Source: Oscillospiraceae bacterium (GTDB lineage Bacteria; Bacillota; Clostridia; Oscillospirales; Oscillospiraceae). Taken from it: 64,000 bases of DNA. The notes under the pieces are model-generated. The model made no database searches. It was given only the letters and a program-made list of their open reading frames with translations, and was not told the origin of the DNA. The translations under genes were made by a program, and so were the position numbers. Of the stretch, positions 55,681 to 62,066 are shown one piece after another. The DNA lies in the NCBI GenBank assembly GCA_015068425.1, contig SVKK01000001.1:1-64000 (forward strand), in the 5' to 3' direction. Numbering within the stretch: position 1 is the stretch's first letter; every line of letters begins with the position of its first letter.

Positions 55681-56481
55681 TCAAAATTCTGCCTTTTCGG
55701 TCTCTACGCTATGGCCGAGGAAAACCCCCGCTCCAGCGCTGAAAACGGCTGTGTCACCGCTTGTGAACCATCGGCGTCCGCCCATTTCACTGTCTGGGCA
55801 GAGTTTGTTTTCATTATGGAGATATTCCCGCAAAGCCAGAGCGGCCTCGCCGCCGCAGGAAATCAGCTGCACTTCCTCACCCAGATATTCGGCTATGGCT
55901 TCTCCAAGAAGGGGGAAATGGGTGCAGCCCAATATCACCGTATCCGCCCCGAAGCGCTTAAGGGCGCTGAGCTCCGCTTCAACCGCAGCTCTCACTTTGG
56001 TATCTTCTGCGGCAAAATGTCCGCTTTCCACAAGGGGAACAAAGCTGGGGCAGGCCGTTTCAAAAACTTTAACGTTCTTTCCGCAGGCTTCTATGGCGCG
56101 GCGATATGCACCGCTCCTGATACTGGCCTCGGTGGCAATAACGCCTATACGCCCCGTTTCCGTAGCTTCGGCAGCCGCAAGCGCCGCAGAGTCTACAACT
56201 CCGAAAAAGGGCACATTGAAGCTCTCACGCAGCTTATCCAGCGCATTGCTGGAAACTGTTCCGCAGGCAACCAGTATGGCCTTCACATCCATTTCCAGCA
56301 GAAATTCCGCATTTTGCAGAGCAAGACGGGTAATATCCTCCCTGCTTCTGGGGCCATAGGGCATATTGGCTGTGTCCCCGAGATATATTATATTTTCACA
56401 GGGCATTGTCTCCTCCAGAACCTTTGCGGCGGTAAGTCCGCCCAGGCCTGAATCGAAGATACCTATTGCTCTTCGGTCCAT
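55681..56481 (-). CDS. murI: Glutamate racemase
   Basis: Converts L- to D-glutamate for peptidoglycan, about 266 aa. It has N-terminal GIFDSGLGGLT (catalytic Asp), first catalytic Cys in VACGTVSSN and second in GCTHFPLL. The first motif is normally CNT; here it is CGT, a change next to the catalytic Cys. ATG 56481 is preferred, with GGAG about 10 nt upstream; ATG 56487 is close. The longer upstream reading frame has unrelated sequence. It is followed by the DUF1934 and argS genes on the same strand. Confidence 0.95.
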   Translation of the reverse strand: MDRRAIGIFDSGLGGLTAAKVLEETMPCENIIYLGDTANMPYGPRSREDITRLALQNAEFLLEMDVKAILVACGTVSSNALDKLRESFNVPFFGVVDSAALAAAEATETGRIGVIATEASIRSGAYRRAIEACGKNVKVFETACPSFVPLVESGHFAAEDTKVRAAVEAELSALKRFGADTVILGCTHFPLLGEAIAEYLGEEVQLISCGGEAALALREYLHNENKLCPDSEMGGRRWFTSGDTAVFSAGAGVFLGHSVETEKAEF

Positions 56482-59156: not shown

Positions 59157-59198
59157 AATTATTTGGAAAACAAAATAAATTTTGATCAGGATGATTAT

Positions 59199-60566
59199 AT
59201 GAATATTAAAGTTCCCATTGCTATATTGGCTTGCCGCGCTGTGCGGCTTCTGGCCCATGTTCTCCGCAAGGGCGGTACCGCAAAGCCCGGCGAGATTGCT
59301 CTGAAAATCTGTCCCAACCTTCTCAGCATTCTCTCAAGGAATGTTAAGACAGTGGTTATAACCGGCACCAACGGCAAAACCACCACCGCCCGCATGGTGG
59401 AGCAGGCCTTTGCCGACGCTCAGCTCAGCTACATCGCCAACCGCTCCGGTGCCAATCTTATCAGCGGCATCACCACCGAGTTCGCCCTTAAAAGCAGCCT
59501 TTTCGGCCGCTGCCGCTGCAGCCACGCCGTTATCGAGTGCGACGAGGCCGCCTGCCGCCGCACTTTGGTACAGCTCAAGCCTCAGGCGGTTCTGGTCACC
59601 AACCTTTTCCGGGATCAGGTGGACCGCTTCGGCGACGTCAGCGTAACGCTGCAGAACATCCGTGAGGGTCTTGAAAAAGTTCCCGAGAGCACCGTCTGCA
59701 TCAACGCCGACTGTCCCCTCTGCTCCTCCCTTGCAAGTTTGCCCAACCCCCGGGTTTTCTTCGGTCTTGAGAACGGGGCTGCAAACAGCGATACCGATGG
59801 CGGCGACATTAAGCGCTGCCCCGGCTGCGGAAGCGAGCTTGAATACTCTTACCGCACCCTCGGTCATCTTGGCGGCTGGATTTGTACCGGCTGCGGCAAA
59901 AAGAGAGCCGATACGGATATTTCCGTCACAGATCTCCTTGCGGCAAACGCATCGGGCAGCACTGTCAGTATGCGTGTTGGCGGCGAAAGCAGCAGTGTGA
60001 ACATCAACCTCCCCGCTCTTTACAACGTTTATAATGCAGCCGCCGCAACCGCCGCCCTTGTTGCGGCAGGCTTTGAAGCCGGCTCCGCATATGCCGCCCT
60101 TGAGAGCTTTTCCTGCGGCTTCGGACGTATGGAGAGCCTCCCCATAGGCACAAAGGGCGCAAGAATGATGCTGGTGAAAAACCCCACCGGCTGCAAGCAG
60201 GTTATCGACTTCCTCTCCGCACTTGATGAAGAAATTGAGCTTGTTATCTGCCTCAATGACCGTGCAGGCGACGGCACCGACATCTCCTGGATTTGGGAGA
60301 CGGATTTTGAAAAGCTTGCCGGACTTGGGGAAAAGCTCTCCTGCATTCGTGTTTCCGGAATACGCTGGGCGGATATGGCTCTGCGTCTGAAATACGCCGG
60401 AATTGACGAGGATAAGATAATCTGCACCCCCGATTACGCCGCTCTCACTACCGATATGGCAAGCTCCGAAAAGAGCATTTATATTATCCCCACATACTCC
60501 GCCATGCTTGAACTGAGAAGCCACATCGTCCGTCTCACCGGCGGCACCGAATTCTGGGAGGGTTAA
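59199..60566 (+). CDS. murT: Lipid II isoglutaminyl synthase, ligase subunit
   Basis: Mur-ligase-like protein of about 455 aa that, with GatD, amidates the D-Glu of lipid II. It has Walker A GTNGKTTTARM, a Cys4 zinc ribbon (CPGCGS and CTGCGK, about 215-245) and the C-terminal MurT domain with LNDRAGDGTDISWIW, the region holding the Asp that completes the GatD triad. ATG 59199 follows AGGA by 7 nt; TTG 59163 would add a poor N-terminus. It is followed by gatD with a 4-nt gap. Confidence 0.95.
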   Translation: MNIKVPIAILACRAVRLLAHVLRKGGTAKPGEIALKICPNLLSILSRNVKTVVITGTNGKTTTARMVEQAFADAQLSYIANRSGANLISGITTEFALKSSLFGRCRCSHAVIECDEAACRRTLVQLKPQAVLVTNLFRDQVDRFGDVSVTLQNIREGLEKVPESTVCINADCPLCSSLASLPNPRVFFGLENGAANSDTDGGDIKRCPGCGSELEYSYRTLGHLGGWICTGCGKKRADTDISVTDLLAANASGSTVSMRVGGESSSVNINLPALYNVYNAAAATAALVAAGFEAGSAYAALESFSCGFGRMESLPIGTKGARMMLVKNPTGCKQVIDFLSALDEEIELVICLNDRAGDGTDISWIWETDFEKLAGLGEKLSCIRVSGIRWADMALRLKYAGIDEDKIICTPDYAALTTDMASSEKSIYIIPTYSAMLELRSHIVRLTGGTEFWEG

Positions 60567-60570
60567 GACT

Positions 60571-61287
60571 ATGGAACTGAAAATTATTCACCTCTACCCG
60601 GATGTTATGAATCTCTACGGAGATATCGGAAATATTATCTGCATCAAAAAGCGCCTCCAGTGGCGGGGCATAGACTGCTCCGTAAAGGAAATCGGTCTCG
60701 GCGAGAAGGCAGATTTCAGCGAGGCTGACCTTATCTTCATCGGTTCCGGCCGTGAGGAGGAGCAAAAAACCCTTCACGCCGATCTTCTGGAAAACAAGGC
60801 CGGGGCTCTCCGCTGCGCTGCTGAAGCCGGCACTTCCATCCTCGCAATAGGCGGCGGCTTTGAGCTGCTTGGCAAGTATATTGAGCTTTCCGACGGCAGC
60901 CGTCTGGAGCTTGCCGGAGTTTTGGATATGCATACCGTAGGCGGAAAGAGCCGCCACACGGGCAACTATATGTTCTCCACTGCCTTTGGCAAGGTTGTTG
61001 CCTTTGAAAACCATAGCGGCAGCACCTATCTTGGCGAAGATCTTGAAAGTCTCGGTAAAATTGAGAAGGGTTACGGCAATAACGGCGAAGGCGAAGAAGG
61101 AGCCAGATGGAAAAATGTTTTCGGCTCCTACGGTCACGGCTCCCTGCTCCCCAAAAACCCCGCTCTCTGCGACGAGATTATCCGCGCCGCCCTTTCCCGC
61201 CGCTACGGTGAAACTGAGCTTGCTCCCCTCCCCGACGAGGCTGAAAAGCGCGCCCACAGCTATATGGCGGAAAGACTTGAAAAATAA
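60571..61287 (+). CDS. gatD: GatD-type glutamine amidotransferase with Cys94 replaced by Gly
   Basis: Glutaminase subunit partner of MurT, 238 aa, class I GATase-like fold. In S. aureus GatD the catalytic residues are Cys94 and His189. Here the aligned motif reads LAIGGGFELLG instead of LAICGGYQLLG: residue 94 is Gly (GGC at 60850-60852), and the Gln is Glu. His189 is kept in YGHGSLLPKNP. The rest looks intact and starts with MELKIIHLYPDVMNLYGD. The protein should be unable to hydrolyse glutamine in the usual way; MurT may use free ammonia, or the base may be an error. Confidence 0.92.
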   Translation: MELKIIHLYPDVMNLYGDIGNIICIKKRLQWRGIDCSVKEIGLGEKADFSEADLIFIGSGREEEQKTLHADLLENKAGALRCAAEAGTSILAIGGGFELLGKYIELSDGSRLELAGVLDMHTVGGKSRHTGNYMFSTAFGKVVAFENHSGSTYLGEDLESLGKIEKGYGNNGEGEEGARWKNVFGSYGHGSLLPKNPALCDEIIRAALSRRYGETELAPLPDEAEKRAHSYMAERLEK

Positions 61288-61343: not shown

Positions 61344-62066
61344 ATGAATAAGGCCATTATCTGCATTTCCAACGCCTCCAACCATAACACGAAGACTAAT
61401 CCCAGCGCCACGCGGCAGATAATCCTCAGCCGTGCCTATGCCGATGCCATTGCGGCGGCAGGCGCTGTGCCCGTAGTAACGGCGGAGCACTGTCCCGATG
61501 AGCTGGCCATTTTCTGCGACGGACTTGTCCTCAGCGGCGGCGAGGATATTGAGCCGGAGCTTTTCGGCGAGAGTATACTCAACGACACGGTGGTGCTGGA
61601 TACTGAGCGCAGCCGCTTTGAGATTCCCCTTATCCGCGCTTTTATGAAAGCCGGCAAACCCATTCTTGCCATATGCCGGGGCAGCCAGATTCTCAGCTGC
61701 CTTCTTGGCGGCGACCTATACCAAGACCTTGCTCAGCAGCGGGGACTCAATCACATGGACAAAGAGCTTCGCCACAGCGTTAGCTGCGCCGAAGGCAGCC
61801 TGATGCATCGGCTATTTGGTGAGAGCGTTCCCGTCAACAGCACTCATCATCAGGCAGTCAGAAGTGTGGCTCCCGGGTTTTGGGTAACAGCCCTCAGCGA
61901 GGAAGGCATTATAGAGGCCTATGAACACAAAGAGCTTCCCATTTGGGCAACTCAGTTCCATCCCGAGCGCCTTACCGGCAGCTGGAGCGACGGCCGCACC
62001 CCGGATTTTGCTCCCCTTTTTCAATTCTTTGTGGAACAGGTAATGAAAATCAAAGCAGGCGAATAA
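61344..62066 (+). CDS. Gamma-glutamyl hydrolase-like amidohydrolase (peptidase C26)
   Basis: Class I glutamine amidotransferase-like hydrolase, 240 aa, of the gamma-glutamyl-GABA hydrolase (PuuD) type. The nucleophile Cys is intact in LAICRGSQ, and His/Glu occur in ATQFHPER. It probably cleaves gamma-glutamyl amides. Its position directly after murT-gatD, 56 nt downstream, is notable because the neighbouring GatD lacks its Cys. There is no proof it substitutes for GatD. Confidence 0.9.
   Translation: MNKAIICISNASNHNTKTNPSATRQIILSRAYADAIAAAGAVPVVTAEHCPDELAIFCDGLVLSGGEDIEPELFGESILNDTVVLDTERSRFEIPLIRAFMKAGKPILAICRGSQILSCLLGGDLYQDLAQQRGLNHMDKELRHSVSCAEGSLMHRLFGESVPVNSTHHQAVRSVAPGFWVTALSEEGIIEAYEHKELPIWATQFHPERLTGSWSDGRTPDFAPLFQFFVEQVMKIKAGE

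Follow-up and report, generated by a model that had tools for sequence, protein, structure and literature searches.

A MurT-associated GatD without its nucleophilic cysteine in an Oscillospiraceae bacterium, and GatD proteins lacking Cys94 among other Clostridia

The closest described system is the MurT/GatD lipid II isoglutaminyl synthase of Staphylococcus aureus and Streptococcus pneumoniae, a drug target that is assumed to depend on the hydrolysis of glutamine by GatD. The S. aureus MurT or GatD alone was inactive with any nitrogen donor (PMC3266927); Ala replacements of Cys94, His189 or Arg128 in GatD each abolished glutaminase activity, Arg128 being required for the use of glutamine (PMC5871853). 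In the laboratory mutant GatD-C94G the use of glutamine was abolished and NH3-dependent amidation at pH 8.5 was unaffected (Munch 2012, PMC3266927); MurT/GatD-C94G used ammonia at pH 8.5 only and not at pH 7.5 (PMC3266927). In S. pneumoniae, Gly72–74 of GatD are the likely oxyanion hole, and the MurT loop 135–143 was described as facing the GatD active site (PMC6085368); replacement E143A in this MurT had only minor effects in vitro. An inactive glutaminase-like domain is also retained by vertebrate carbamoyl phosphate synthetase 1 (CPS1; Cys → Ser in human), which uses environmental ammonia (PMC4655335, PMC7657897).

The window is the whole stretch of DNA analysed, 64,000 nucleotides of an Oscillospiraceae bacterium (contig SVKK01000001.1, positions 1 to 64,000, assembly GCA_015068425.1). 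An orthologous pair in the same order was found in it, murT being placed upstream of gatD with 4 bases between the two genes; the features are as follows.

59199–60566, + strand: murT, ligase partner, 455 aa, start ATG at 59199 (TTG at 59163 possible); PF08353, PF08245, NF045635 (296 bits) and motifs.
59610–59636, + strand: MurT loop R138–E146 (S. pneumoniae 135–143) facing the GatD active site, with L141V and E146D in the window; invariant-column comparison.
60297–60299, + strand: MurT D367E, at the negative gate that faces GatD (Asp361 in S. pneumoniae); invariant-column comparison.
60571–61287, + strand: gatD, 238 aa, GATase_3 fold, predicted glutaminase-dead; ORF, PF07685, match to S. aureus GatD, AlphaFold2 model.
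60745–60756, + strand: oxyanion-hole strand, GSGREEEQ vs GGGQDFEQ, G59S, Q61R and D62E flanking G60; invariant-column comparison.
60850–60852, + strand: codon GGC, encoding Gly94 (nucleophile Cys94 in S. aureus); alignment and codon reading.
60862–60864, + strand: codon GAG, encoding Glu98 (Gln98 in S. aureus; Cys+4); alignment and codon reading.
60952–60954, + strand: Arg128 codon, kept; alignment.
61135–61137, + strand: His189 codon, kept; alignment.
61344–62066, + strand: Peptidase_C26, gamma-glutamyl hydrolase-like, Cys intact (AICRGSQ, QFHPE); PF07722 (171 bits).

The window GatD was matched by PF07685 with 106 bits, over the cut-off, and by S. aureus GatD with E 5e-44 (HMMER); scored alone, the window protein fell below the NCBIfam equivalog cut-offs (NF045636, 154.6 of 400 bits; NF052463, 178.3 of 450 bits). 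The nucleophile stretch reads GCA ATA GGC GGC GGC TTT GAG CTG (AIGGGFEL). In the HMMER alignment to S. aureus GatD (5n9m, 6gs2: LTICGGYQFLG), in which two streptococcal GatDs were also included, its Gly and Glu stand opposite Cys94 and Gln98, and His189 in GHGSLLPKNP opposite the catalytic His; the exchange of Cys94 for Gly, that of the nearby Gln for Glu and the conservation of His189, all three claimed in the initial annotation, were thus confirmed. The Cys of the G-X-C-X-G nucleophile elbow of class I triad glutamine amidotransferases is therefore absent (AIGGGF). The AlphaFold2 model (pLDDT 91.8) gave S. aureus GatD (6gs2/5n9m) as best PDB matches with TM 0.91, and the strand-elbow-helix around residue 94 is kept in it. 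The protein is a GatD orthologue of the ordinary GatD clade that lacks the glutaminase residue Cys94; judged from these residues, its glutaminase activity has almost certainly been lost. The glutaminase domain was found kept without the catalytic Cys, as in CPS1, with the differences that the latter is non-orthologous, is part of a fused polypeptide and serves the urea cycle, not the cell wall. The nucleophile substitution is identical to that of the S. aureus C94G mutant; the window variant is natural, known here from sequence, and carries additional pocket changes including Q98E.

For the count of changes, the reference was the 63 alignment columns of GatD in which 153 Cys-type relatives show an invariance of 97% or more. 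The window GatD departs at 9 of these (L13M, G59S, Q61R, D62E, C94G, Q98E, Y104I and G144A, plus an Asp missing through a gap of one residue), against a mean of 0.5 in the Cys-type relatives. Five of the nine (G59S, Q61R, D62E, C94G, Q98E) sit in the oxyanion strand or the nucleophile elbow, G59 being the central one of the three probable oxyanion-hole Gly residues; the changes at invariant sites thus lie largely in the predicted glutamine pocket.

In the window MurT the Walker A motif (GTNGKT), GAN, ECDE, KNP, DGTDISWIW and the four zinc-ribbon Cys are retained, these being all the ligase and ATP motifs checked, and Asp349, third member of the proposed triad, is kept in an ordinary surrounding region; with Arg128 and His189 of GatD, the zinc ribbon, ATP site and Asp349 are shared with the S. 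aureus and S. pneumoniae pairs, from which the window pair differs by C94G, Q98E and G59S in GatD and by E146D and D367E at the MurT gate. Among 85 columns invariant in 144 intact partners the window MurT departs at 6, including L141V, E146D and D367E. Position 146 was not Glu in 4 of 6 degenerate pairs (Asp) vs 2 of 144 intact pairs (Fisher p 1e-5, kinship ignored); with phylogeny allowed for, the association was non-significant (median p 0.6, five independent pairs only). A joint variation of the MurT gate residues with GatD degeneration is only suggested, the more so because the E143A replacement in S. pneumoniae had so little effect.

Alignment with GatDs of relatives, which the initial annotation had proposed, revealed that the loss is recurrent and, beyond that annotation, an older clade without Cys and His. 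In total 240 distinct GatDs (same GTDB family and beyond) were aligned, of which 158 carry Cys94 and 82 lack it; this split is not a census, the set having been partly picked for interesting matches. Gln98 was found in 155 and His189 in 157 of the 158 Cys-type proteins; among the 82 Cys-less ones, Glu or Asp occupied position 98 in 80, Arg128 was kept in 78 and His189 was absent from 78. The four Cys-less GatDs with His189 all fall inside the ordinary GatD clade: the window protein; L186 (JAFQQV010000063, goat-colon MAG, genome G423; CIGGGMEMLG, the same Gly/Glu pair as in the window); L108 (genome G199; AVGGGYQLLG); and L013 (genome G036; AIDGAYEFLG). L186 is likewise altered at D62, C94, Q98, Y104 and G144. 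Cys with Glu98 was found in L091/L213, L092 and L318, which are possible intermediates; in L092 and L091 much of the same set of sites is altered with Cys still present. In L318 (genome G1057, outside the order of the window organism) Cys94 and His189 are kept, with Gly95 → Thr and Gln98 → Glu (ATCTGFEILG). In L005/L121 (genome G018) Cys94 is present and the catalytic His189 is replaced by Tyr.

The MurT tree (gate columns masked) implies that members of the ordinary GatD clade lost Cys94 on four occasions (window, L186, L108 and L013), each time beside an intact MurT. A common origin of the losses in the window and L186 was rejected: in the MurT tree L186 is nested in its own genus clade, in which the other members sampled are Cys-type (support for the clade 100/98), and the gene 3' of its gatD matches the same genus. 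When the motif was masked, the GatD tree grouped L186 with the window protein (99/80); since the MurT tree and the downstream gene tie L186 to its genus, this pairing is read as convergence or long-branch attraction, and a transfer of gatD only between the two lineages, though possible, is not favoured. Genome G423 holds, besides the Cys-less pair at the genus-typical locus, two near-identical Cys-type GatDs with MurT on other contigs (L219/L265, L266), gained by transfer or derived from contamination.

The separate MurT-GatD-like clade (L014–L026, L234–L258, L294–L317 and others) mostly has TGNxxE for CGGxQ, lacks His189 and adjoins MurT; it is old and spread over many families of Clostridia. 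The model of one member (pLDDT 86) matched S. aureus GatD best, with TM 0.84. In the MurTs of this clade the P-loop is kept, Glu or Asn replaces Asp349, the DNADD region is altered, and the Glu ending the GatD-facing loop is replaced, mostly by His; the altered Asp349 and DNADD suggest a different chemistry there. The window GatD shares with the clade the fold, the adjoining MurT, Glu98 and Arg128, but is placed outside it, in the ordinary clade, without TGNxxE and with His189 kept. In a sample of 60 relatives, each genome with a MurT_C match had exactly one.

The reading preferred here, judged to have an even chance of being right, is that the window GatD is glutaminase-dead yet structurally indispensable to MurT, free ammonia being the most likely source of nitrogen, as in CPS1. 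MurT would activate the alpha-carboxyl of D-Glu in lipid II using ATP; the amide nitrogen would come most likely from free ammonia and no longer from glutamine; and a GatD without glutaminase would be retained since MurT still needs it. The behaviour of S. aureus C94G, for which the use of NH3 requires GatD, would explain such a retention. By analogy, the complex may be taken as active, with ammonia as donor and D-Glu of lipid II still as acceptor. Many relatives of the window organism are rumen or gut MAGs, and rumen and gut are usually rich in ammonia. The main difficulty is the failure of the S. aureus mutant at pH 7.5, because of which the use of ammonia at cytoplasmic pH would need further adaptation. 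Against the ammonia reading stands also the presence of glutamine synthetase (GlnA) in the window organism, so that glutamine is not lacking; an inability to make glutamine was rejected as the cause on this ground. In the window genome, assembled to 1.9 Mb with a completeness of 84%, one GATase_3 and one MurT_C protein were found; at this completeness an additional GatD of the Cys type could have been missed, and the L186 genome does hold such copies. Of the options named in the initial annotation, a MurT driven by ammonia is the best supported, though still by analogy.

According to a second reading, held to be rather unlikely, the glutaminase was lost recently and the pair is drifting to loss, amidation being absent or provided by an undetected second copy. 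The long branches of the window GatD and MurT would fit it, that of GatD fitting relaxed constraint as well; so would the sole other genome of the genus (66% complete), in which neither MurT nor GatD was detected, and the Cys-type copies alongside the Cys-less one in the L186 genome. Both ORFs, however, are full length, closely spaced and coding-like in GC3, the changes are clustered in the glutamine pocket with the MurT motifs intact, and elsewhere the clade without Cys has a long history and a wide distribution. When neutral decay was simulated, an amino acid divergence of 10% left the ORF intact, with at most 9 of the invariant sites changed, in 24% of runs, which is compatible with a recent loss, whereas at 20% divergence the observed state was obtained in just 3% of runs. 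The initial annotation had also considered that amidation might be lost; the intact MurT and the pattern of retained sites weaken this option, and recent decay is the form in which it survives.

A changed donor appears distinctly unlikely for the window pair: the pocket, which has retained Arg128 and acquired Glu98, would take an amino acid or other amine that MurT joins to D-Glu, or would sense an effector. It is favoured by the retention of the glutamine-capturing Arg128 and the acidic position 98 in nearly all of the Cys-less GatDs, as counted above, and by the altered Asp349 and DNADD region in the MurTs of the Cys-less clade; a changed donor or a sensing role is compatible above all with that clade. 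The Asp349 region of the window MurT is ordinary, however, Arg128 is perhaps structural, Q98E perhaps merely shuts out glutamine, and the pocket ligand is hypothetical.

A supply of ammonia by a separate glutaminase, e.g. the C26 enzyme, is highly improbable. The initial annotation had correctly placed a Cys-containing C26 gene directly downstream, and it does begin 56 bases 3' of gatD, has its Cys motif intact and encodes the only PF00117-type protein found in the window assembly; but its nearest families (Pfam/NCBIfam) are gamma-glutamyl hydrolases, there is no sign of complex formation, and no C26 homologue was found beside gatD at the other loci compared (most flanks ~1.5–4 kb). The gene adjoins murT-gatD but is probably not part of the system, and the hint in the initial annotation that it might compensate was not upheld. 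That codon 94 was misread or misassembled, for which the single base change TGC → GGC would be enough, is hardly credible in view of the second change at 98 (12 bases off), the further pocket changes G59S, Q61R and D62E and the recurrence of this Gly/Glu pair in another MAG (L186), which agree with the earlier argument from two changes.

Returning to the glutaminase-free reading, it may be extended tentatively, with slightly less than even confidence, to the proposal that across Clostridia a large MurT-GatD clade and several independent converts have abandoned glutamine, the pseudo-glutaminase pocket (Arg128 and acidic 98) and the MurT gate being remodelled for ammonia or another amine; there would then be two biochemical types of D-Glu modification in peptidoglycan. 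The repeated natural loss of the nucleophile suggests that in many gut Clostridia the pair can do without glutaminase activity, and insensitivity to inhibitors aimed at the GatD cysteine is predicted there. The losses would constitute several independent natural experiments in the conversion of a glutamine-dependent amidotransferase into a glutaminase-free one, and bear on D-Glu amidation run on ammonia; amidation affects crosslinking and the peptidoglycan fragments released by gut bacteria. The GatD family is known and the acatalytic variant is new; no earlier description of acatalytic GatDs, those of the Cys- and His-less clade included, was found in open papers, most subscription papers and preprints lying outside the search.

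Apart from the C26 protein, the window genome yielded no PF00117 class-I domain of the kind present in CarA, GuaA and PyrG. Among G002, G005, G006, G009, G014, G018, G019 and G022, several gave only 1–2 weak PF00117 matches, some of these genomes being 94–98% complete; the scarcity of such proteins suggests reduced nucleotide synthesis. The idea that the GatD change followed from a genome-wide depletion of class-I amidotransferases was rejected, no strict link being seen: G005 is nearly as poor yet has a Cys-type GatD, and G008, G021 and G023 have several yet carry the Cys-less clade. A gene at 55681–56470 (− strand), which from its sequence we take to be glutamate racemase (MurI)-like, with a role in D-Glu supply, lies ~3 kb from murT-gatD.
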